Shown: positions 38,836-50,511 of the stretch, one piece after another | Numbering within the stretch: the first letter of the stretch is position 1 | Layout of the letters: each line of letters begins with the position of its first letter | From: an uncultured delta proteobacterium | GTDB taxonomy: Bacteria > Desulfobacterota > Desulfovibrionia > Desulfovibrionales > Desulfovibrionaceae | DNA: 50,511 nt | Assembly: GCA_903843965.1 (NCBI GenBank) | Contig: CAIMRY010000036.1 | Span: forward strand, 1 to 50,511 | Direction: 5' to 3' | Program-made: the position numbers and the translations under genes | Notes under the pieces: model-generated | The model's database searches: none | Seen by the model: only the letters and a program-made list of their open reading frames with translations | Told to the model about the DNA's origin: nothing

Positions 38836-38974
38836 CGTTTGTCCGGGCCGCGCGAACCGGGTCGCACGAACGGGGTGGCAGACGGCCTGACCGCCTCTTC
38901 CAGCGGAAAGCGCTGGGCAAAGTGCGCGGAATCGCTTACGCTCTATGCGTCAACCAACGCGAAGGAGCCCCCCT

Positions 38975-39727
38975 GTGATCGCCAAAGTCCGCACCGCCGC
39001 CCTGCTCGGCATCGAGGCGCAGCCCGTCTCCCTTGAAGTCGACCTGACCCGCTCCGGCATGCCCGCCTTCACCCTGGTGGGCCTGGCCGAGGGCGCGGTG
39101 CGCGAGGCCAAGGAGCGCGTGCTCTCGGCGCTGAAAAACGCCGGGTACCGGCTGCCGCCCGCACGCATCACCGTGAATCTGGCCCCGGCGGACCTGCGCA
39201 AGGAAGGCAGCGCCTACGACCTGCCCCTGGCCCTGTGCCTGCTGGCGGCTGCTGAGTCCATCGACACAGGAAGTCTGGCCGAACGCCTGGCCCCGGAAGT
39301 CGTGTCTTCTGGCGGCGTGTCTTCTGGCGGCCTGACTTCCGGTGACGGCGGCTGGTTTTTGGCCGGGGAGCTGTCGCTGGACGGCGCGCTCAAGCCCGTG
39401 CCGGGCGTTTTGCCACTGGCCATCCTGGCCCGGAACCAGGGCGCGGCCGGACTCATCGTCCCGGCGGAGAACGCCGCCGAGGCCGCCGTGGTCCAGGGCC
39501 TGCGCGTCTTTGGCGTGGACAGCCTGACCCAGGCCGTGCGCCTCATCACCGGGGAGGACCAGCCCGAGCCGCTGGTGGTCGACGTGGACGCGCTCTGGGC
39601 CGGGCAGGACCGGGCCGAGGGCGACTTCGCCGAGGTCAAGGGCCAGGACCACGCCAAGCGCGCCATCGAGATCGCCGCCGCCGGCGGGCACAATCTGCTC
39701 AACATGGTGCTCCATAACCCCGAATAA
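38975..39727 (+). pseudogene. comM: comM (YifB family) 5' part, interrupted by a mobile element
   Basis: N-terminal 243 codons of the Mg-chelatase-like AAA+ helicase ComM, which drives branch migration during natural transformation. The N-terminal S5-like domain reads VIAKVRTAALLGIEAQPVSL and GMPAFTLVGLAEGAVREAKE. The family sequence ends at GGHNLLNMVL (about 39712), just before the Walker A; the last codons are element DNA, with TAA at 39725. GTG 38975 follows AAGGAG. A 15-bp repeat encodes SSGGVSSGGL near residue 115. The rest of the gene resumes at about 50078. Confidence 0.92.
39704..39721. other. Left attachment site (attL) of the comM element
   Basis: Host comM sequence runs into ATGGTGCTC (39704-39712), which matches ATGATGCTC at the right junction (50078-50086) except at one base. 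The element arm TAACCCC (39715-39721) is the reverse complement of GGGGTTA at 50062-50068. Confidence 0.7.
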
Positions 39728-39747
39728 GTGAAGGAGGGACTAAAATC

Positions 39748-40431
39748 GTGCATCCGAATGCAAAGCCAAGATACGAATTGTCGTCCGAGGTCTTGAAGTC
39801 ACGCCGCAACCTGATAATATTCTCTTTCGTGCTGCTTTCTCTCTATGTCTTGGCCCCAGAACTCATTGAATTTAAAATTGCGTTTATTGAAGCGAAGATA
39901 TCACAAATATACGGCATTAAATTACTGCTGTTCGGTGCAATACTGGTCGAATCTTTTACTTTTTACAGTAGATGGTATGTGTGTTTTATCGATTTCAATG
40001 TAGACAACATCTACTCGAAAAACATTATGATTATGGATAGAGCCGATAATTTATGTGCTGGTGCAGTGTCTTGTACAAACAAAGAATGCAAAGATGAAAT
40101 ACTTCAAATCAAATTGGACGCACGTGAATCACACAACACAATCGTTGAACTTGCTGGAGTTAATTTTTTCTTCGGTGCAAAAGTGGAATTGCTTGCTCCA
40201 ACATTTCTTATTTCAGCTGTTGCTGTGTACTCTTTGTATGATTACCAAGGCGCTACTATTTCAAAATATCTATCGCGCTCGGATTGCCTTCTCTCTGTAC
40301 TTATGTTTGTCGCTGTCTTGATGTGGTATGTGATTCTTCGTCACCGCTGCCTGTCTATACTGGTATACGCTGCAAATCTATTGACTCGCTTGTTGCGCTT
40401 GAACAAGCCCGACACTGGACGTAATCTGTAA
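39748..40431 (+). CDS. Hypothetical four-helix membrane protein of the element
   Basis: A 227-residue protein with about four membrane spans (NLIIFSFVLLSLYVLA, GIKLLLFGAILVESFTFY, FLISAVAVYSLYDY, SVLMFVAVLMWYVIL) and a central soluble loop with CAGAVSCTNKEC. Not recognised. The GTG start follows a strong AAGGAGGG (39731-39738) only 21 bp after the comM stub stop, so it may be expressed from the comM promoter. It is the most AT-rich gene of the element. Confidence 0.6.
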   Translation: MHPNAKPRYELSSEVLKSRRNLIIFSFVLLSLYVLAPELIEFKIAFIEAKISQIYGIKLLLFGAILVESFTFYSRWYVCFIDFNVDNIYSKNIMIMDRADNLCAGAVSCTNKECKDEILQIKLDARESHNTIVELAGVNFFFGAKVELLAPTFLISAVAVYSLYDYQGATISKYLSRSDCLLSVLMFVAVLMWYVILRHRCLSILVYAANLLTRLLRLNKPDTGRNL

Positions 40432-40631
40432 TGGTAAGGCCATCACTCCGAACCAGAACCCAGCCTACCCACTGCCGCCAAGAACTACTTGCCTGTGTCT
40501 CCGCTCAGGGAGCTCTACAACCGCTGCTTGACCTCTCTGTGGCCTTGATGAGTCCTGGGGTAGCTTAACTTCGTTGGCTCATAGGATAGACCAAGCTCTT
40601 TTAACTCAGCAACAGAAGTAGGAGGTCGGCA

Positions 40632-41153
40632 GTGAAGCGACTGGCCCTTGCGCTCGGTGTCCTACTCATCCTGTCAGCTTCATCGTGGGCGTACGACCTC
40701 ACCCTGCATGACACCAAGGCCGAGGTGTACTTCTCACCCCGTGGAGGCTGCACAGAGGCCCTTGTGAGGCACCTGGAGAGGGCGGAGAGGTCTATCTACG
40801 TCCAGGCGTACAGCTTCACTTCCCCTACCATCACGCAGGCTCTCATTGGCGCTCAAGCCAGAGGTGTTGAAGTGGAAGTCATCCTCGACAAGAGCCAGAG
40901 CCGAGGACAGGGAGCGGCAGGTACCATGCTTAGGGATGCTGGGGTGAAGGTGTTCATCGACTCTGCCCATGCCATTGCCCACAACAAGGTCATGCTCATT
41001 GACGGGCGTACTCTCGTCACCGGGAGCTTCAACTTCACGAAGGCTGCGGAGAACAGCAACGCAGAGAACTTGGTGGTGTTGGAATCGCCTGAGGCCGTTG
41101 GGTTGTACCGGGAGAACTACCTGAAGCACCTGGAGCATTCACTGGGGCTGTAG
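40632..41153 (+). CDS. Exported phospholipase-D-family nuclease (Nuc type)
   Basis: A 173-residue single-HKD protein of the Nuc/PLD nuclease group. A signal peptide (MKRLALALGVLLILSASSWA) directs it to the periplasm. The HKD motif is His117-Asn-Lys119, Asp124 and the GSFNFT (131-136) that completes it. The family dimerises to form one active site and cuts DNA or RNA without metal. The GTG start follows AGGAGG. In an element that breaks comM, a periplasmic nuclease could destroy incoming DNA. Confidence 0.88.
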   Translation: MKRLALALGVLLILSASSWAYDLTLHDTKAEVYFSPRGGCTEALVRHLERAERSIYVQAYSFTSPTITQALIGAQARGVEVEVILDKSQSRGQGAAGTMLRDAGVKVFIDSAHAIAHNKVMLIDGRTLVTGSFNFTKAAENSNAENLVVLESPEAVGLYRENYLKHLEHSLGL

Positions 41154-41162
41154 TCCATTGTG

Positions 41163-41546
41163 CTATGTGGCCTGGAGTTTAGCTCTGGCCTTCTTATAGT
41201 CCAAGATGGGCCAGATGACGGGTATGCTGAAGCTGATTTTCGACTGCGAAGACGAGGTTGTCTCGGACCCGACACCCCCACCAACCTTCAACCCAAGTAC
41301 TTGGATGCCACCTTCGCCGCTTGCCTTAGAAGCGTCCGCCACGGTGACGACAAGGTCAAAAGAAACGACTTGGAGAATCTGGTCTCCACCGTCCACTCCC
41401 CGGCCCCACACCGACGCAGCCTTTGCGTTGCCATACTCGGTGGTTGGATTTATTACCGCCCCTGCTTCAAGGGTGGCTTCCTGGGCCGAGATGATGCCCT
41501 TCGTGATTTGCGTCAAGGCCGAGGAGACAAACTGTTCAAGGTCCAT
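41163..41546 (-). CDS. Conserved-looking hypothetical protein
   Basis: A 127-residue soluble protein. An N-terminal helix (MDLEQFVSSALTQITKGIIS) precedes a strand-rich part (VVSFDLVVTVADAS, ISFSIPVIWPIL). I recall similar small proteins with an FSxPI-type motif near the end, but assign no function. GGAGG lies before ATG 41546. It is the last gene of the minus-strand cargo series and converges with the nuclease gene, 9 bp apart. Confidence 0.6.
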   Translation of the reverse strand: MDLEQFVSSALTQITKGIISAQEATLEAGAVINPTTEYGNAKAASVWGRGVDGGDQILQVVSFDLVVTVADASKASGEGGIQVLGLKVGGGVGSETTSSSQSKISFSIPVIWPILDYKKARAKLQAT

Positions 41547-41577
41547 CTAAACCTCCATCAGGTAACGCGCAGAACTT

Positions 41578-42144
41578 CTAGAACTTCACCTTGTCGCTTG
41601 GCACGTACCCGTCTGGGTATGTCGCTCTCATTTGCTGTACCCATTCCTCATGCTCCTCTACCGCCCGTTTGGCCTCTGACTCAAGGACACCACTGCTTTC
41701 AAGGGTGAGCGCCATGCCGAGGATGCACCTCGCAATCGGCTTGCGCAACATGGTGACGGAAATCCAATTGACGAGGGAGAACAGGGCATACAAGTAGAGC
41801 ATGGATGAATCCGAAGATATTCCGAGTGTCTTTAGTCCAGGGTGGAACCCGATGGATAAGACCCCAGCGAGTAGAACAACGTAGCCGATGATGTCTCCGC
41901 GAAACTCGCGTGGTTCAAGTTTCGTGTGCACAAGGGCAACGTAGGGATACATGAAGTTTGAGGCTGTTGCTGCGAAAGCAAGCGTGAACCACGGCCACTT
42001 CATAAACAATTCCACCCCGAAGCCAATGCGGTAGAACTCCATGTAGCCTGTCCACAAGTAGGGCAGCAGCACGGAGAGGACATTCCCGACGAAGGTGAAA
42101 GCTAGAACCTTGATGACGAACCGTTTATCTGCCTGCTCCCACAT
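41578..42144 (-). CDS. Hypothetical membrane protein
   Basis: A 188-residue protein with four likely helices (VLAFTFVGNVLSVLLPYL, WPWFTLAFAATASNFMYPY, IIGYVVLLAGVLSIGF, MLYLYALFSLVNWISV) and a charged cytoplasmic C-terminus (ESEAKRAVEEHEEWVQQM). No family recognised. The start has GTAGGAC upstream. It lies 31 bp before the previous gene in a same-strand series. Confidence 0.6.
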   Translation of the reverse strand: MWEQADKRFVIKVLAFTFVGNVLSVLLPYLWTGYMEFYRIGFGVELFMKWPWFTLAFAATASNFMYPYVALVHTKLEPREFRGDIIGYVVLLAGVLSIGFHPGLKTLGISSDSSMLYLYALFSLVNWISVTMLRKPIARCILGMALTLESSGVLESEAKRAVEEHEEWVQQMRATYPDGYVPSDKVKF

Positions 42145-42170
42145 GTCCTACCCACCCCCCGTGAAGTTGG

Positions 42171-42440
42171 CTAGTTCACTGGTCCTTCGTCCTTCTCGCA
42201 CCTACAGGACGGACTCAAGCTACCGTCACAGCACACCACCCGGCCACCTTCGCAACCGCACTGCCCCTTGTGATGTGAGCAGCAACCACGGCCAGCCAAG
42301 GTCATAGGTTCCTTGTTGTCCTGTGGTTGTGTGCAGATGAGCGCTGGCGGGTTTGCCTCCCTTTGCTGACCCATCTCATCGGCGAACGATGTAGAGCACA
42401 GGGCTACTACCACCCCAAGAGCGAGAAAGACCCGTTTCAT
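42171..42440 (-). CDS. Small secreted cysteine-rich protein
   Basis: An 89-residue protein with signal peptide MKRVFLALGVVVALCSTSFA. The mature C-terminal half has nine cysteines: CCSHHKGQCGC, RVVCCDG and SPSCRC. I recall the CCSHHxG...VVCCDGxxSPxC pattern from the ends of other bacterial secreted proteins; disulfides or metal binding are likely. The start is the ATG just before the signal peptide, not the upstream 42506 ATG. Function is unknown. Confidence 0.65.
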   Translation of the reverse strand: MKRVFLALGVVVALCSTSFADEMGQQREANPPALICTQPQDNKEPMTLAGRGCCSHHKGQCGCEGGRVVCCDGSLSPSCRCEKDEGPVN

Positions 42441-42447
42441 CTTGGGC

Positions 42448-42657
42448 CTACAGCTTGGACTGAAGCGAGGAAGCCGCTGCCTGTTCGACCTGGGCAACCT
42501 TCGCAACCTTCCTCGTCTGCTCGTTCAAGGCTAGTTCCTCCTGCTTCTTCTTCTCGGCCTCGACCACGAGACGCTTGCACCCCTCCGCTGCGCTATCACC
42601 AACACCGCTCGACTGCGTATTTTTGCACTGGTTGCTGACCTTGCTGATTTCCGCTGT
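42448..42657 (-). pseudogene. In-frame coding tail after an amber stop
   Basis: Directly after the TAG ending the lipoprotein gene (42658-42660), the same frame stays open for 69 codons to a second TAG (42448-42450). The residues look like real protein: TAEISKVSNQCKNTQSSGVG, then AAEGCKRLVVEAEKKKQEEL, a coiled-coil-like stretch with a Cys pair. There is no ATG or obvious ribosome site, so it is either a tail lost by a nonsense change or reached by read-through. Confidence 0.6.
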
Positions 42658-43104
42658 CTACTTCTTGTCAATGTCAGCTTTGATTCGGTCGAACCAAGCG
42701 TCACGTTCATCCAAGGTGGCAAACTGCTCTGGCTCCAGGATGATGGAGTACTTCGGCGGGAACTTGAAGCCTGAGCCCTTGGCAGCATCAACGATGAGCC
42801 CAATGCCGCCCCCCAAGAGGATGTTCCCCCAAATCCATCCGTCATGCTTCGTGTCCAGGGTGGCAGTAGTCCGCTTGTAGCCAGGGGCTGTGCAAGCGAC
42901 TGTGATAGGTGCGGCCTCGGAGGGGAGAGGGATGCTGTTCGGCGTGGTGACGACTCGCTTGAAGTCCTGCCCGTGCAGCTCACATTTGGCGACCTCAGGG
43001 GTTGTCTCCAGGTAGGTGACGGACTTGTTGTCACTCATCATGCTGGCACAGGCCGGGAGAAGGCACACCATAGACAGCAAAAGAAGTTGCCGGGCGTAGC
43101 TCAT
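42658..43104 (-). CDS. Putative lipoprotein with Gly-rich transmembrane segment
   Basis: A 148-residue protein with a type II signal peptide; the lipobox LLPAC at residues 15-19 makes Cys19 the lipidated residue. A strand-rich domain (KCELHGQDFKRVVTTPNSIP, ITVACTAPGYKRTTATLDTK) precedes a Gly-rich hydrophobic segment GNILLGGGIGLIVDAAKG, like a group of envelope lipoproteins. It ends ADIDKK at an amber codon after which the frame stays open (see 42448-42657). AAAGGAC precedes ATG 43104. Confidence 0.72.
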   Translation of the reverse strand: MSYARQLLLLSMVCLLPACASMMSDNKSVTYLETTPEVAKCELHGQDFKRVVTTPNSIPLPSEAAPITVACTAPGYKRTTATLDTKHDGWIWGNILLGGGIGLIVDAAKGSGFKFPPKYSIILEPEQFATLDERDAWFDRIKADIDKK

Positions 43105-43149
43105 GCTCTTGTCCTTTTGCGGTTGAAGTGGAAGCTGAGAAGACCGCCG

Positions 43150-43458
43150 TTACGGGTTCTTGGTTCCGACTTTGCCCGTGTCGGGGTTGACGTTGCCCTT
43201 CGTGGACCAGTTGTCGGCCTTGCTACTGTTGGCTGCGGACCTCTTGTGGGCCTTGACACGGGTGCCGCTCTTCTTCGTGTAGCTACGGACAGACACGGCG
43301 CTCTTGCTGCTGCGGCTGCTGCTACCTGAGGATTTGTAGCTGTGGCCTCTCCCCCCACCTCCGCCACTCCTGCCACCCCCACGGGCCTCAGCGGTGAAGG
43401 GGAGGACCAGACTCAGGGCAAAGAGGAATACGAAGGCCAGGGCGACCAGCTTTTTCAT
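43150..43458 (-). CDS. Small secreted Gly/Ser-rich protein with a repeated-family C-terminus
   Basis: A 102-residue exported protein: signal peptide to about residue 25, then a Gly/Arg/Ser region (ARGGGRSGGGGGRGHSYKSS) and a C-terminal unit VRSYTKKSGTRVKAHKRS...NWSTKGNVNPDTGKVG. That unit aligns with the neighbour at 43527-43850, and I recall a similar Y-x-R-x-D/S-G-T-x-V...N-x-NP-x-TG motif in short periplasmic proteins. GAGGAG precedes ATG 43458. Function unknown. Confidence 0.68.
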   Translation of the reverse strand: MKKLVALAFVFLFALSLVLPFTAEARGGGRSGGGGGRGHSYKSSGSSSRSSKSAVSVRSYTKKSGTRVKAHKRSAANSSKADNWSTKGNVNPDTGKVGTKNP

Positions 43459-43526
43459 GGGGGGGTCTCCTCAGCGTAGCCTTTCAGTTCATACCGCACA
43501 AGGTGGGCACTCAAGCGACCCTTTGA

Positions 43527-43850
43527 CTAGTACCCGCGCTTCCCGTGGGTCGAGCCGCCATAGGGGTTGCTTCCATAAGGGTTGCTACTGCCGTAGGGGT
43601 TGCTGCTGGGCTGCGAATAGCTGGAATCAGGGGCCTTGTGGCCTTCCTGCCCTGTGTAAGGGTTCGTGTTCCCCTTTGTTGAATAGTTGTTGTCGCGGGT
43701 GCTGTCCGGAGCGGTCCTCATGTACGAATTGACGTGGGTGCCATCTTGGCGGTCGTAGCCATTGACTCGCATATCTGCCGCAACAGCGCAGGTAGCCCAT
43801 ATGGCAAGCATCATGGCAATAATGGTCAGAAGAATGGTGAGCTTTTTCAT
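43527..43850 (-). CDS. Small secreted protein sharing the same C-terminal motif
   Basis: A 107-residue exported protein: signal peptide MKKLTILLTIIAMMLAIWAT, then the unit VNGYDRQDGTHVNSYMRTAP and NNYSTKGNTNPYTGQEG, paralogous to its neighbour. The C-terminus is a SNPYGSSNPYGSNPYGG repeat encoded by a tandem microrepeat. GGGAG precedes ATG 43850; the longer frame upstream has none. It is the first gene of the minus-strand cargo series. Confidence 0.68.
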   Translation of the reverse strand: MKKLTILLTIIAMMLAIWATCAVAADMRVNGYDRQDGTHVNSYMRTAPDSTRDNNYSTKGNTNPYTGQEGHKAPDSSYSQPSSNPYGSSNPYGSNPYGGSTHGKRGY

Positions 43851-44386
43851 GGTAACTACTCCCTTTTGTGAGTACGTACGCGCCTTGAATAGGGGTGTCC
43901 ATATCAACTGTGCTGGCAAGCACTTCTGGGAGCGTCGCCCATGAGATTCCCACCCACAACCGGTAGTTAGCGCAATTCAATGAATCTAGGTAGTTGCCTG
44001 TTGCAGCGTCGGACAAGTAATCCGGTGTGCCCCGAACCCGACCGCGCAGAAAGTATCAATTATACCATCAACTTGCTTGTACGCACCTCCGCCCGGACGG
44101 CTTCCTGACGAGCAAGGATGGTCGAAGGATGGAAGGTTACACGGGGGTCCCTAAAGGAGAAGGTTCGCACCACAATGAGTGCTGGCCTGTCTGCCTGACT
44201 GATTCTCCCAACAAGGCAACGTGTGCGCCAGTATGTGCTTGAAGGGGCGGGGAAGGTGTTCTTCCTCGTCCTTTCTTGCTCCGTGGGCGTGGATAGCTCT
44301 ACGTGGAGACAGTCGAGGCTGGCGGGTTCAGGACAAGTTGAAAGTGGAACCTCCTTCTACGCACACAATACCCTTGAAGGAGAACC
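43851..44386. other. Gap between divergent cargo and ATPase genes
   Basis: About 535 bp with no supported gene. It must hold promoters for both directions. An extended -10 for the minus strand lies at 44059-44067. No clear plus-strand promoter was found. Confidence 0.4.
44059..44067 (-). promoter_or_regulatory. Extended -10 promoter of the cargo series
   Basis: On the minus strand TGGTATAAT is a perfect TGnTATAAT extended -10; the -35 is weak. It lies about 210 bp before the first cargo gene (43850), giving a long leader. Confidence 0.5.
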
Positions 44387-44407
44387 ATGAAGAATGACTA
44401 CGACTGA
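44387..44407 (+). CDS. Possible 6-residue leader peptide before the ATPase
   Basis: ATG 44387 starts MKNDYD and a stop at 44405-44407. It has the better spacing to AAGGAG (44377-44382, 4 nt) than the ATPase ATG at 44394 (11 nt) and overlaps that start in another frame, so it may tune ATPase translation. Low confidence. Confidence 0.3.
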   Translation: MKNDYD

Positions 44408-45455
44408 GAAGAAAGAAACGAGGAAGATGTTGACCTTTGCAGACCTGAAGAAACTGGAGCTACCTCCACGCAAGTACATCATCGCGCCCTGGCTAAAGGA
44501 AGGTGAGAGCGCAATGGTGTATGCGCCTACGGGGGTTGGCAAGTCGATGTTCGCTATGACCTTAGCACTAGCTGTGGCTGGTGTCGGTGATGTTTTCGGG
44601 TGGTCCTGCCCGGAGCCGAGGCGGGTGCTGTACGTCGATGGTGAAATGCACATTGCTGACCTTCAGGAGCGGGCCGTACTTCTGTCGAAGACAATTGAGG
44701 GTCGGCCTAGCTCTGACATTATGGAAGAATTGCTGAAAATCTATGCGCGACAGTATCAGGGCTCTAGTGATTTCCTTGACCTCGCTACACTTGAGGGACA
44801 GGCAGAGCTACTAAATGTGCTTGATGATGAAGATGCTACAGAGGGGAAAGTTGACCTGCTTATCCTCGACAACCTCTCTACCCTCGCCACGATTGCTGAT
44901 GAGAACGCAGCCTCGTCCTTTGACCCCATCCTGAAGCTGCTCATGGAACTGAAGAGGCGTGGTGTCGCTACCATCCTCGTACACCATGCGGGCAAGAGTA
45001 AGACAAGGAATGACTTTCGGGGGTCCAGTAAGCTAGCGACAACTTTTGAGGTCATCATGGGTTTGAAGCCGATGGATGAGGCAGACAAGCAGACGGCATG
45101 GGGTACTGGGTTCGCTATCCAGTGGGACAAGTACCGCCAGAAGCCTGATGAACGTGTTGGGCCTATGGATGTGAGGCTTAACACCTCTGACCCTGAGCTT
45201 CCGCGCTGGGTGGTTACTCAAGCTGAAGATGCTGACCTGATGAAGCTGGTGGTGGCAGTGAAGTCCTGCGAGTACCCGACTGATGATGCCCTGAGGGAGA
45301 AGTTGTTCCCGAACCTGAAGCACAAGTCTCAGATGTCCAGGCTGAAGCAGAGGGCCATTGAAACGAAGCTGATAGACCGGGCGCATTGGGCTGCATGTAT
45401 GAAGGATGCGAGGGAAGCTTTCGCGGTGCCCCCTCTGCCCAACAAAGACTTCTAA
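44394..45455 (+). CDS. RepA/RecA-fold ATPase (AAA_25-like)
   Basis: A 353-residue P-loop ATPase resembling RepA-type hexameric replicative helicases. Walker A is APTGVGKS (residues 44-51), VLYVDGEMH is the catalytic Glu region, and Walker B is VDLLILDNLS. IATEN-like polar and HHAGKS segments complete the fold (TILVHHAGKSKTRNDFRGSS). Such proteins unwind DNA at plasmid or element origins, or act in phage/plasmid primase-helicase modules. It might start at Met12 (44427) instead. A 1.5-kb gene-poor region follows, which could hold the origin. Confidence 0.75.
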   Translation: MTTTEKKETRKMLTFADLKKLELPPRKYIIAPWLKEGESAMVYAPTGVGKSMFAMTLALAVAGVGDVFGWSCPEPRRVLYVDGEMHIADLQERAVLLSKTIEGRPSSDIMEELLKIYARQYQGSSDFLDLATLEGQAELLNVLDDEDATEGKVDLLILDNLSTLATIADENAASSFDPILKLLMELKRRGVATILVHHAGKSKTRNDFRGSSKLATTFEVIMGLKPMDEADKQTAWGTGFAIQWDKYRQKPDERVGPMDVRLNTSDPELPRWVVTQAEDADLMKLVVAVKSCEYPTDDALREKLFPNLKHKSQMSRLKQRAIETKLIDRAHWAACMKDAREAFAVPPLPNKDF

Positions 45456-46413
45456 ACTCGACATCTGCTAACCGTCTGACTTTAAGCTCCAGGATAACCA
45501 GAGGGTGTCCTCACAATACGCGATGGTAACGCCATTCATTTGGTGCGACCTTCGAAGCGTGAGGGCATCCTCTGTCACTATATGGAAGGTTGGGTGGCAA
45601 GGAGGCAAGGGAGAACGCGAGGTTTATCACTGCTAAACAAGCGGCCTTCTGCGCAGGTTTAAGCCAGGGGGGCCTGGGTGGACCTGAGGTGGTGCGCTAG
45701 GCCGCTCAGTAGGGTCCTCGCTACGCTCTAGCTTAAGTTATTGTTCATGGTTCTCTTCTTTCTTATAGGGCTGTGAACTGTAAATACTGCATTATTTCAG
45801 CATGTTCCATTGAAACAAAACGGAGCCAGTTCACGGACGGGGGTATCAATTCACCTTTTGGAGCCACACATCAGCAGTCCCCGCATAAGGCGTGGAGCAA
45901 GGTCAGGTAGTTAACTAGGCATGGGAGGTATTGGGCATAACTATAGCTATTCCTGATACCTCCTATCACTAATCCTGCTGAGTTTGAAAATGTGTGAACC
46001 CTAAACAGGAGGGGAAGGAGTACTAGAGGTATACTTAAAGTTGATGAGGGAGGTGTGAGGACTCTTGTTACTACTATCATTAAGGAGCGAGAGCGATTCC
46101 CTCCCGAAGGGACCTAAGGTAAAGTATGAAGCTTAATACTTAGGTACTAAGGTTGAACCTTCAGTTAGTGGGAGAGCAGCCAAAGGCAGGGGAGGCTACA
46201 TTCTCTTTCTTCTAAGACCCGAGACACCGGAGACACAACCTCCCTTACACCCTTGTTAACTAGTTCTTACTAGAATGCCTGTTAAACAGCCCTCCCTCCC
46301 TGGACAGTAGAACATGAACCTTTAGTGTATCATTCAAATATGCGCGTGGTTGCCGCATAGGAGGCGAGAGGCACTAAGGGGCGGAGGTAGTACCAGAAAC
46401 TATGTCCGAGGTC

Positions 46414-46671
46414 TTAGGAGCAATCCTCAGGATAAGTAGAGCATGGTGAGAGTAGGTGGCGGGATGAAGTAGAGGTCAAAATGGAAAAGTAGTAGAAAAA
46501 TGTGTGTGGGGTACGTTTAGGCTTGGTCAGGACTGGTTTCCCCATAGGGCCTCTGCGGATGCCTGTGAGGGTTGCTTTCACATTATCCAAAGCATCGCCT
46601 AGGGCGCGTCCATCATCTAGAGGCATTGCCTGTCCGAGGCAGCGCAACTTGCTCCTCACCCTTTCGTGCAT
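46414..46671 (-). CDS. Doubtful small ORF, possible gene remnant
   Basis: An 85-residue frame starting MHERVRSKLRCLGQAMPLDD with GALDNVKATLTGIRRG-like composition, then a less protein-like tail (FFYYFSILTSTSSRHL). GAGAAG lies just before the ATG. Not recognised; it may be chance. Confidence 0.25.
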   Translation of the reverse strand: MHERVRSKLRCLGQAMPLDDGRALGDALDNVKATLTGIRRGPMGKPVLTKPKRTPHTFFYYFSILTSTSSRHLLSPCSTYPEDCS

Positions 46672-46764
46672 CTTCTCACGGCAACAGTAGTGATACCAAC
46701 GAGGAGCACCGGGCGCTGGAATGGTGTACCTGCGTTTTTTCGAGTTGCCTTGTTAACATGCTTG

Positions 46765-46878
46765 TATAATAGACTATTACCTGTGCGCCAGCCCTTGGCT
46801 ACAGCCCTGAGCCCATGAACCGCCTTTAGCTGCTGGTATGCATGTAGGGGGGTACGCCAATCACTTAATTAGTTAAGT
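46765..46878 (+). promoter_or_regulatory. Promoter -10 and dyad upstream of the small recombinase
   Basis: TATAAT at 46765-46770 is a perfect -10 with a weak -35. ACTTAA-TTAG-TTAAGT at 46863-46878 is a perfect 6-bp dyad. They lie about 240 and 135 bp before the recombinase start and could be its promoter and a resolvase or operator site. Confidence 0.45.
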
Positions 46879-47011
46879 CTTTATAGCCTGAGAAAGTACT
46901 CTCACAAGCATTATAACGATATTAATCTTTAGAATGTTGTCGTTGTAATTCCATCTGGATGCTGATACCTATGAACCACAGCACGTTTCTACCGTGTCTG
47001 CGGAGGTACAT

Positions 47012-47722
47012 ATGGGCACACCAAGGAAGGCTTACGGCTACATCAGGGTGTCGAGCCAGGGGCAAGTCGAAGGCGATGGTTTCAGGCGGCAGGAAGCTGA
47101 GATTGAGACCTACGCTATGGCCCACGGCTATGAGGTAGTCCATGTGTACCGTGAAGAGGGGGTCTCAGGCACTACGGGTGAAGCCGATAGACCAGCCTTC
47201 CAAGCGATGGTGGAAGTCATACTACGCAACGGTGTCAGGGCCATCATTGTGGAAGGTCTGGACAGGCTTGCCAGAGAGTACCGAGTTCAAGAGACCTTGC
47301 TTGTGTACCTCGTGTCCAAGGGCATCACCCTCATTGCCGCGAGGACAGGCGAGAACGTGACAGAGGCTATCATGGGAGACCCTATGAGGAAGGCTCTTAT
47401 TCAGGTTCAGGGAATGTTCGCAGAGCTTGAGAAGGGGCTACTCGTAAAGAAGCTCAGGGTAGCTAGGGAGCAGATGCGTAAGGACACTGGCAGGTGTGAG
47501 GGGCGGATAGCCTACACCCCTGAGACGCTTCCAGAAGGGTCTAGGAAGGCACTAGAGGCCATCAAGAAGCTTCGGCATAGCAACCCCGGCCAGAAGGTTA
47601 TGAGCTTCCCTAATGTTGCTCAGGCTCTCGACTCAATGGGGCTTGTGACTTCACGAGGCACTCAATTCACAGGCACAAACGCACAAGCCATTTGGGCTAG
47701 ATACAGGAAGATGATTTTGTAA
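47012..47722 (+). CDS. Small serine recombinase (resolvase/invertase family)
   Basis: A 236-residue serine recombinase. The catalytic Ser14 is in GYIRVSSQGQ, the arginine region is VEGLDRLAREYRVQE, and the long E helix ends KLRVAREQMR. A short C-terminal DNA-binding segment (NVAQALDSMGLVTSRGTQF) replaces the large zinc-ribbon domain of integrases. It may resolve, invert or excise DNA within the element, or be a remnant of an older insertion. GGAGG at 47002-47006 sets the start at 47012. Confidence 0.85.
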   Translation: MGTPRKAYGYIRVSSQGQVEGDGFRRQEAEIETYAMAHGYEVVHVYREEGVSGTTGEADRPAFQAMVEVILRNGVRAIIVEGLDRLAREYRVQETLLVYLVSKGITLIAARTGENVTEAIMGDPMRKALIQVQGMFAELEKGLLVKKLRVAREQMRKDTGRCEGRIAYTPETLPEGSRKALEAIKKLRHSNPGQKVMSFPNVAQALDSMGLVTSRGTQFTGTNAQAIWARYRKMIL

Positions 47723-47775
47723 CTGAGGCATTCAGTGGCTACCTGTCCCTATTGTTTTTCTCGTCTACTGATTTA

Positions 47776-47806
47776 CACTTGACAAAATTCAAGTGACGAA
47801 TATTCT
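47776..47806 (+). promoter_or_regulatory. Promoter overlapped by an operator-like dyad
   Basis: TTGACA (47779-47784) and TATTCT (47801-47806), 16 bp apart. CACTTG (47776-47781) and CAAGTG (47790-47795) form a perfect dyad across the -35. Such an arrangement suggests a repressor site for the 89-residue gene downstream. Confidence 0.65.
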
Positions 47807-47871
47807 TGCTTAATGTGCTGATAGTGATATGGCTGTCCTCTTGCTAACAATTCAAACGAGGAGGATAGGCT

Positions 47872-48141
47872 ATGAGAGTGATTATGGGTGGAGATAGTAG
47901 CATCGAAAACGGCAAGTACGAGACAGAAGTTGAGGTGGCAATTGGTGAGTTTGTTTACCTCAGCAGGGACATAGCGCCTTACGATACACCCCATAGTTTG
48001 CTTTGTTCTTGGGAGAAGTTGCCTCAGGACCAAAAGGACAGATTTCAGGAAGTACACAGTGAACTGATGCAGATCGTAAGAAAGATACAGGTCATGTTTG
48101 CCAAAGTGCCACAGTCTACACATTTTGGAGAGTGTTTGTAA
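47872..48141 (+). CDS. Small hypothetical protein, possible directionality factor
   Basis: An 89-residue acidic soluble protein (MRVIMGGDSSIENGKYETEV, later LPQDQKDRFQEVHSELMQIV, a likely helix). Not recognised. GAGGAGG precedes the ATG and a regulated-looking promoter lies upstream. Its place next to the large serine recombinase, convergent to it, makes a recombination directionality factor one option, but there is no sequence evidence for that. Confidence 0.55.
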   Translation: MRVIMGGDSSIENGKYETEVEVAIGEFVYLSRDIAPYDTPHSLLCSWEKLPQDQKDRFQEVHSELMQIVRKIQVMFAKVPQSTHFGECL

Positions 48142-48167
48142 TCGTCGGCACACTCTATTTCTTCTCA

Positions 48168-48208
48168 GGGTGCCTTGTGGTTGGCTTTCGCGCTTCTGGT
48201 AGGCACCC
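48168..48208. terminator. Hairpin between convergent genes
   Basis: GGGTGCC (48168-48174) and GGCACCC (48202-48208) are perfect inverted repeats between the convergent 89-residue gene and the large recombinase. No T-run, so activity is uncertain. Confidence 0.4.
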
Positions 48209-48265
48209 GTGTATCAGATTGAGCCTACTATTGACCACAGGGCATCCTGGCGGACCGCATACCGC

Positions 48266-50035
48266 TCATTCAATGTCAAACAGGTACCCCATTGATGCCA
48301 TGTTCATGATACGTCCCTCTGGAGGCCACACAGCATCAGGCTCAACAACGTGAAGCACCTCCGCACCACCCTTCAGGACTCGATACCCTTTGGAACTCTT
48401 CTGGCCCTTCTCGACCTTGATACGATGGATGCTGGCTGTTCCCTTGAAGGCGATTTCAATAATGCCATGAAAGGAAGAGTCTGGACTGTGGGCCGGGTGG
48501 AACTTGATGCTGTCCAACTGACGAAGTAGAAGCTGGTGCATCCTACGGCGCATCTCATACACCTGCCCTGGTTCTCCCTCATGCTCGGCATCAATGAACG
48601 CCCTGAAGGCATCCTCTGATTCATCGGCTACGGCTTCAGCTTCCAGGGAGCGGCTACGGGCAGTTTCAAGCTGCGAGGAAGCCAAAACGAGGCGGGCCTC
48701 AAGCTCCTGTTCCTTTGCCTCCAGCTTGTCCAATGCGCGGCGTAGGGCTTGGCTCGGACTCTCGGCAATCTGGTCCGCTACGTTGTCCACCTTGACTGTG
48801 GTTGCCCCTAGCTCTGAACGCAGACCCTCAAGCCGTTGCTCCAGGGCCAGGGCCTCATCCTGAGCTTGCCGAGCAATGTCAGGGAGTAACGTGCGGTAGT
48901 CCAGGGAATGAAGGTTCAGCAGGATATGGGCCTGGGCCTGAGGGTACCTCCACGCATGGCGCTTACAAGTTCCAAGCTTCCTCTTTGCCGCTGAACAGAC
49001 GAGGTAAGTTCCTCTCCTGGGGCCAATACCTTTGTTGTCGAAGGCCATCGTTGAGCCGCAGGTGCCGCACTTGACCAGCCCAGTGAACAGGTTGGAAAAC
49101 TTGGCAACAGTCCCACCACCAGGGATGCGCCGCTCTTGTCTCATGGCCTGGGCTCGGTAGAACGTCTCCTGGTCAACGACGGCGGGGTAGTACCCATCAA
49201 CAGGTTCTCCTACAGGCACCCTGCGGCCCTCAACCAGCTTGGTAGTATGAGGCTGGAGCCTCCCGAAGACGGCCTCGTTTGCCAAAATCTTCTTCACGTA
49301 GGAGTCCCACCATCCGCTTGCCCGCCCAAATGGGGGGATGCTCTCAGCATTGAACTTTCGCGCCAGGGTGTTGGCCCCTTTGCCCTCAAGTGTCTCCCTG
49401 AAGATACGCTCTACCACCCCTACCCTGTCTGGGATGGGGGTGTACTTCCCTATGGCCTTGTCCAGCTTCAACCACTGCGGGCATGTACTGGTCATGGCCT
49501 TGCCCTTCTCCCTGGCATCCTCACGCTTGTGTTTCCAGGCTTTGGATAGTCGCTCAGACTTCACCACTGACTCTTGATGCGCCCGGTGCATGGTGAGTAA
49601 CGACACCAGGAGTTGCGTGAAGTCCCTGGCAAAACTCTCCGGGGTGTACGTCTGGCGGTCCTGAAGGGAGACTACAACTATACCACTGCCCAGGATGCCA
49701 GAGAGGAGGCGGTACGCTGTGTTTGGGTCTTCGCGGCTCAGGCGGTCTAGGTTCTCAATGATGAGGTAGGAACCGGGGCGAATTGCACCTTGCTCAACTG
49801 CGGCGAGAAATCTACTCAAGGCTCCGTCCTTGGCATGTTTCCCCTTGAACGCAGACACTCCCTCATCCTTGAACATGAGGTCTTCATCAAGGTCTAGGCC
49901 ATGCTCAAGGGCGTACTGGCGAGTGGCCTCGTACTGGCGGTGGAAGCTATCGCCCTTCGCCTGTTCTGGGCTGGAGAACCGGATGTAGCTGTACGCCTTG
50001 GGCCTTGGGCCAGTAGTGGTGGTGGGTTCGCTCAT
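48266..50035 (-). CDS. Large serine recombinase (integrase)
   Basis: A 589-residue site-specific integrase, the likely cause of the comM insertion. The resolvase domain has catalytic Ser21 in [10 protein letters not shown] and [10 protein letters not shown] recombinase domain follows ([31 protein letters not shown]), then a zinc ribbon (CGTC at 323-326, Cys347, Cys357). A coiled coil runs from about residue 385 to 500 ([20 protein letters not shown]), as in phage and ICE integrases. ATG 50035 is used; an in-frame ATG at 50059 lies inside attR. Its 5' end is 40 bp from the right junction. Confidence 0.93.
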
Positions 50036-50061
50036 GCGGCCAATGTAGCACAGGACCATCA

Positions 50062-50086
50062 GGGGTTACAAGGGCCAATGATGCTC
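50062..50086. other. Right attachment site (attR) of the comM element
   Basis: GGGGTTA (50062-50068) belongs to the element arm; ATGATGCTC (50078-50086) is the shared core and comM continues with TTCGTGGGC. With the left end it rebuilds a dyad attP centred near ATG (50078-50080). Confidence 0.7.
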
Positions 50087-50511
50087 TTCGTGGGCCCGCC
50101 GGGCAGCGGCAAGACCATGCTTTCCCAGCGCATCCCCACGGTTTTGCCGCCGCTCACCTTCGACGAGGCCCTGGAAGTCACCAAGATTTACTCCGTGGCC
50201 GGAATGCTCCCGCGCGAGGCCGCGCTCGTGGTGCGTCGCCCGTTCCGCTCGCCGCACCACACCATCAGCGACGCCGGGCTCATCGGCGGCGGGGTCAGCC
50301 CCAGGCCCGGCGAGGTCTCCCTCGCCCACAGAGGGGTCCTGTTCCTGGATGAACTGCCGGAGTTCAAGAAGCACGTGCTGGAGGTGCTGCGCCAGCCCCT
50401 GGAAGACGGCCGGGTGACGATATCCCGCGCGGCCCAGGCGCTGACCTACCCGGCGGACTTCATGCTCGTGGCGGCCATGAACCCCTGCCCCTATGGTTTT
50501 GCTCTTTGCCG
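50078..50511 (+). pseudogene. comM: comM (YifB family) 3' part, running off the window
   Basis: Resumes the ComM frame after the element: [20 protein letters not shown] is the Walker A region, followed by [20 protein letters not shown], the [13 protein letters not shown] motif, Walker [12 protein letters not shown] and AAMNPCPYG. The final codons (after about 50495) depart from the family pattern (usually CPCG then GD) and turn AT-rich, which may be a frameshift, another junction or poor end sequence. It has no start of its own. Confidence 0.9.

Follow-up and report, generated by a model that had tools for sequence, protein, structure and literature searches.

The comM gene of an uncultured bacterium of the family Desulfovibrionaceae is split by a serine-integrase island, denoted element A, and also contains an unrelated element of the same broad kind, element B; very probably, each was inserted by its own large serine recombinase (LSR). 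The window, that is, the whole stretch of DNA analyzed (50,511 nucleotides), comprises all of contig CAIMRY010000036.1 (C36) from a host genome of 3.56 Mb in 46 contigs, and comM (YifB, TIGR00368), a DNA-uptake gene, is cut in two in its right part. We observed precise junctions, an empty site in relatives, a symmetric attP, an integrase gene at the end of element A, and the same junction for members of this integrase family in many genomes. LSR A and LSR B are the likely agents of integration, and both elements may still be able to excise.

A match to the N-terminal ChlI and Mg_chelatase profiles occupies positions 38945–39724, and the Walker A part of comM is found from position 50081. As proposed in the preliminary description, a serine-recombinase element lies between these parts, splitting the gene just before the Walker A motif: the intervening DNA encodes an LSR with Resolvase, Recombinase, and Zn-ribbon domains, along with an AAA ATPase and cargo, and is AT-richer, with a GC content of 48–58% at 40001–50000 vs 61–73% before 40001 (1-kb steps). 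The pentanucleotide TGCTC is common to both comM halves (39696–39700 and 50082–50086), and the crossover falls on the CT within it, in a codon just before Walker A (the ATP-binding motif). The size of about 10.4 kb given earlier is accurate (10,386 bp from core to core), but the earlier end of the 5′ frame, GGHNLLNM, was off by a few bases; because TGCTC is shared by both junctions, the residues NM belong to element A. The ATG crossover that GGHNLLNM would imply was rejected, given that empty alleles read GGHNLLF, placing the crossover at TGCTC. Uninterrupted comM across this site joins as GGHNLLFVGPPG. The host gene is in three pieces because element B also integrated in it; all three are open and, joined at both cores, form one frame of 536 aa that is 78.7–89.5% identical to the full-length comM of ten congeners. 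A failure of the parts to join in frame, named at the outset as evidence to the contrary, was looked for and not found. The split of comM is real and not due to chance: the joined frame is intact, and full-length comM, the empty site expected in relatives, is present in 10 of the 15 genus genomes searched (the host's own included in the 15). The features of the locus are listed in the table.

Table. Features of the interrupted comM locus (window coordinates unless a contig is named).
Feature	Position	Strand	Evidence
comM 5′ part, 241 whole codons to the crossover, ends ...GGHNL	38975..39697	+	Pfam ChlI + Mg_chelatase; in-frame join
attL crossover dinucleotide CT inside TGCTC	39698..39699	.	shared core, attP symmetry
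Element A, 10,386 bp	39698..50083	.	core-to-core distance
ORF1, 227-aa hydrophobic protein adjoining attL	39748..40431	+	
PLD-superfamily nuclease, NucT-like, putative signal peptide (by eye)	40632..41153	+	PF13091 E 3.7e-27
188-aa hydrophobic protein, without family match	41578..42144	-	
Small cysteine-rich ORF; tail matches an ORF of the G038 element	42171..42506	-	
Putative lipoprotein (by eye)	42658..43104	-	phrog_6823
Small putative secreted protein	43150..43458	-	phrog_29674
Second small phrog_29674 protein; relatives in the G038 and G135 elements	43527..43919	-	
AAA_25 ATPase	44394..45455	+	PF13481 E 3.1e-30; phage primase/helicase PHROGs
Second, small serine recombinase (Resolvase domain)	46994..47722	+	
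89-aa ORF adjoining LSR A, without family match	47872..48141	+	
LSR A, 597 aa, Resolvase + Recombinase + Zn-ribbon	48266..50059	-	
attR crossover dinucleotide CT inside TGCTC	50084..50085	.	shared core, attP symmetry
comM middle part (Walker A to NPC)	50086..50488	+	Mg_chelatase E 2.3e-66; junction
Element B left edge	50489..50511	.	138-bp overlap with C19, junction positions
LSR B	C19:87-1697	minus	ORF

LSR A sits at the right end of element A. The nuclease near the opposite end is matched by NucT models, but far under their cut-offs, and ORF1 matches, at 88% identity, a copy in the remnant described below (contig C19) and nothing else in 149 family genomes. The two phrog_29674 proteins have relatives in the comM elements of genomes G038 and G135, the integrases of which differ, and the small serine recombinase has a 73% identical copy in the G135 element, the LSR of which is 39% identical to LSR A. 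Searches of element A for relaxase or conjugation genes (Pfam, NCBIfam) produced no match, no RNA family was detected in 38900–50511 at the Rfam gathering threshold, and a tandem-repeat search and a repeat search within the element revealed nothing informative.

The last 138 bp of the window are identical to the first 138 bp of contig C19, on which comM is broken again at the NPCPCG motif, with a 536-aa LSR at the edge of the inserted DNA. This second element in the same gene was absent from the preliminary description; the window ends at its edge. Element B measures 20,068 bp from core to core, reaching base 20183 of C19, after which the C-terminal part of comM follows. It is an LSR element unrelated to element A (about 24% identity between the two recombinases over residues 26–338 of LSR A), and its linkage to element A rests on the 138-bp contig overlap. 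Its cargo (L014:4715–19947) includes a DrmD-like SNF2 helicase, a sacsin/TmtA-like protein, a C5 methyltransferase, a UvrD helicase, and an ArdC-like protein, and appears to be defense-like.

Just past comM on this contig, at C19:20667–21608 (L015:2667–3608), lies a remnant that contains a diverged comM fragment (about aa 180–219; 91% to the window DNA), an attL-like junction, the open ORF1 copy, and 50 bp that exactly duplicate the 3′ end of comM; it resembles the left end of a further A-type element derived from another comM. In two congeners (L066:2960–3640 and L069:3000–4020), a single small ORF directly follows comM, and beyond it part of the comM 3′ end occurs a second time.

The reconstructed attP of element A is an imperfect palindrome centered on the crossover CT. 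Its arms match about CT at 14 of 24 positions (shuffle mean 6.3; a fraction of 0.0008 of 5000 shuffles as high) and at no more than 10 of 24 when the center is slid by 1–6 bases; the center was selected from the dinucleotides within the shared pentanucleotide, so the symmetry is slightly favored. For the other elements, the arm matches are 16/24 (element B), 19/24 (G044), 20/24 (G038), and 15/24 (G002), with 0 of 5000 shuffles as high in each case. The crossover in G044 is the CT of element A, and that in G038 is the CC of element B. Under the proposed mechanism, LSR A would recombine attP with a conserved attB in comM, crossing over on CT in a codon just before Walker A, and LSR B would insert element B at the NPCPCG motif through a reaction of this type.

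Within the genus, comM is in pieces in three of the 15 genomes, namely, the host, G029, and G062 (on separate contigs in the latter), and a comM match is absent in two, each 82–83% complete. The ten full-length congeners read GGHNLLF at the site of element A; eight have CT(C/T/G) as the crossover codon, and L072 and L073 have TTG. The pattern of this site among relatives is HN[LI]L-[FL]-xGPPG. TIGR00368 matched 55 of 59 family genomes at 1e-20, 51 of them above the cut-off. A multi-kb insert cuts comM in five of the 59 (the host, G002, G029, G038, and G044), and several further partial matches are located at the ends of contigs.

Searched against 297 genomes of the class, with few candidates scored per genome, LSR A identified ten places in nine genomes at E ≤ 1e-75. 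Six are by comM: those of the host, G044, and G190 at the same codon, that of G135 near aa 34, and those of G186 and G222 at NP/CPCG (the slash marks the split). The other four (G130, G013, and two in G032) are away from comM, which is intact elsewhere in these three genomes; the G013 LSR is nearly identical to that of G222 (L090 and L089). The LSR B query matched six of the 297 genomes at 1e-70, and in four of these (the host, G038, G109, and G127) comM is split at the same NPCPCG motif, with only part of the junctions placed in G127 and one TGA in the C-terminal comM match of G109; around the matches in G135 (contig C24) and G100, the 1.5 kb of flanking DNA covered contains no comM. G002 contains a third type, a 548-aa serine recombinase with a symmetric attP at EVK/GQE, in which Pfam recognizes the Resolvase domain only. 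Across the class, serine-recombinase elements occupy five comM positions: near aa 34, aa 199, aa 217, NP/CPCG, and NPC/PCG, the last being two codons past NP/CPCG. The position near aa 34 counts as shown for G135 only; in L163 and L165, two of the best 80 relatives from named genomes (see below), the comM match starts near aa 30 with no N-terminal piece detected, and these loci were not counted as splits. A Tn7-like transposon in the congener G029 marks a sixth position.

Named genomes were scanned with one genome per species, and the best 80 of 231 LSR A relatives were kept. Among these 80, a comM match was present in the fetched DNA for 58, and a comM part ended or started at aa 205–226 in 55 (L100 is probably one more), with both comM parts present for 17; in 52 of these 55 cases, an end of a comM match was no more than 181 bp from the LSR match. 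The remaining 22 of the best 80 had no comM match in the fetched DNA, and eight of these are flanked on each side by 9.4 kb or more and therefore are not in comM. We count these 22 relatives against the preferred reading, together with the four class places away from comM and the finding that only one of 50 LSR relatives on viral contigs (L193) has a comM match. Relatives at the aa-217 site bear labels of Alpha-, Beta-, and Gammaproteobacteria, Desulfobacterota, Gemmatimonadota, Verrucomicrobiota, and Bacillota, with one metagenome bin behind each of the last three labels. These comparisons suggest that integration at a single conserved comM codon is widespread in the LSR A family and spans several phyla.

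A quick tree was built from 87 LSRs (78 of the best 80, two short ones being left out, and nine from the class), in which L163 and L165 bear the label S0 (near aa 30). The aa-217 label requires 16 changes on this tree; shuffles require 24.5, and 1 of 500 was as low. The G135 LSR pairs with an aa-217 integrase (support 91), and the G222 LSR pairs with that of G013, beside G044 (support 98); given that the G013 LSR lies outside comM, this clade is not confined to the gene.

Element A might instead be a degraded prophage or phage satellite and not a self-standing island, which we consider possible but doubtful. The 50 viral-contig loci with LSR A relatives speak for a phage connection, as do 199 phage records that match LSR A, the phage primase/helicase matches of the ATPase, and the matches of four small proteins to PHROGs of unknown function. 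However, none of the 199 records covers 80% of the protein in one place (nor does any of 77 matching plasmid records), the element is only 10.4 kb long, and no capsid, terminase, tail, or lysis family was found among the ten element A ORFs scanned against PHROGs. An intact prophage was rejected, as no virion or packaging genes were found among these ten ORFs.

It is improbable that comM was already a dead gene in which the elements are neutral passengers. Two elements within one comM would fit such a history, as would the comM of G029, with its transposon and a frameshifting deletion; the open state of all three host pieces and their identity to the comM of ten congeners, the precise junctions, and the use of the same comM sites in other genera argue against it.

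Tn7-like islands in comM have TGT...ACA ends with a 5-bp duplication. Such an element cuts comM of G029 at GLIGGG: it is 21 kb long, encodes TnsA, TniB, and a Mu-type (DDE) transposase, and has GCGGG on both sides and TGT...ACA ends. The Walker B motif of comM is found a short distance downstream of its site, and about 52 bp spanning the element A site are missing from the same gene (by eye), a deletion that shifts the frame (L053/L054). In Tn6022, TnsF is reported to need and recognize a conserved stretch in the comM Walker B motif, and comM is a proven Tn6022 target (PMC10293859). That element A is itself a Tn7-like (AbaR/Tn6022-type) transposon, with the five bases TGCTC common to both junctions as its target duplication, is nevertheless very unlikely and was rejected, considering that no Tn7-type protein (TnsABC/TniQ) was found among the element A proteins scanned (Pfam, NCBIfam), TGT/ACA ends are lacking (by eye), the stretch shared at the same codon in G044 is 11 bp (by eye), the attP is symmetric about CT, and the G029 element is at a different comM position.

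Integration of elements A and B by their own LSRs has precedents. The genes annotated as "magnesium chelatase" in PMC10083194 and PMC9203015 we take to be comM/yifB. LSR integrative elements disrupt homologs of a "magnesium chelatase/ATP-dependent protease", the target of 12.4% of predicted site-specific integrases (Durrant 2022, PMC10083194), the same gene as that disrupted by element A; unlike the present case, the relevant section of that report neither places the insertions within the gene nor describes a gene with two elements. In the Wolbachia phage sr1WO, a serine recombinase integrates into a magnesium chelatase gene, the parts of which flank the prophage (Bordenstein 2022, PMC9203015); unlike element A, sr1WO is a full phage of obligate endosymbionts, and the likeness lies in the target gene. 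Targeting of comM is also known for Tn7-like and Tsy elements (Faure 2023). AbaR/Tn6022 and Tsy are, like element A, islands in comM, but they use DDE or tyrosine chemistry and another position in the gene, and element A has no Tn7 proteins in the scans. The convergent targeting suggested in the preliminary description is borne out to the extent that LSR and Tn7-like elements both occupy comM in one genus, but it is not news: LSR targeting of comM is already published, and element A is a further case of a known kind. In the parts of the literature on serine integrases and comM/yifB/Mg chelatase covered here, we found neither two elements in one comM nor several crossover positions of serine recombinases or related integrases within it; the double occupancy of one comM and the several sites within one gene are what is unusual here.

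In Acinetobacter, AbaR insertion in comM lowers transformation, and removal restores it (PMC7508600). By analogy, loss of comM would lower natural transformation in the present host, the genome of which encodes ComEC and DprA. Transformation is prevented by DNases encoded on some mobile elements (PMC11472951), which lends interest to the NucT-like protein of element A; the lack of a match to it at 1e-4 in the other element loci searched weighs against an anti-transformation role. We tentatively propose, as a possibility and not the likeliest outcome, that serine integrases pick comM as a gene and not as one sequence, that what is selected is the loss of transformation-mediated removal of the element, and that element A may add a further block through its putative exported nuclease. 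Choice of the gene would be consistent with the unrelated recombinase types at five comM positions in one class and with clade members that switched codon within comM (G135 near aa 34 beside an aa-217 relative; G222 and G186 at NP/CPCG beside G044 at aa 217); the location of the G013 LSR outside comM, despite its near identity to that of G222, speaks against a strict choice.

The analysis defines the att sites of element A and assigns it to an integrase family that targets a single conserved codon of comM. One comM with two independent integrase elements is a testable case for the repeated disabling of a transformation gene. If loss of comM is selected, the sites would vary within comM and the gene would stay fixed, a pattern that the class survey shows in outline.
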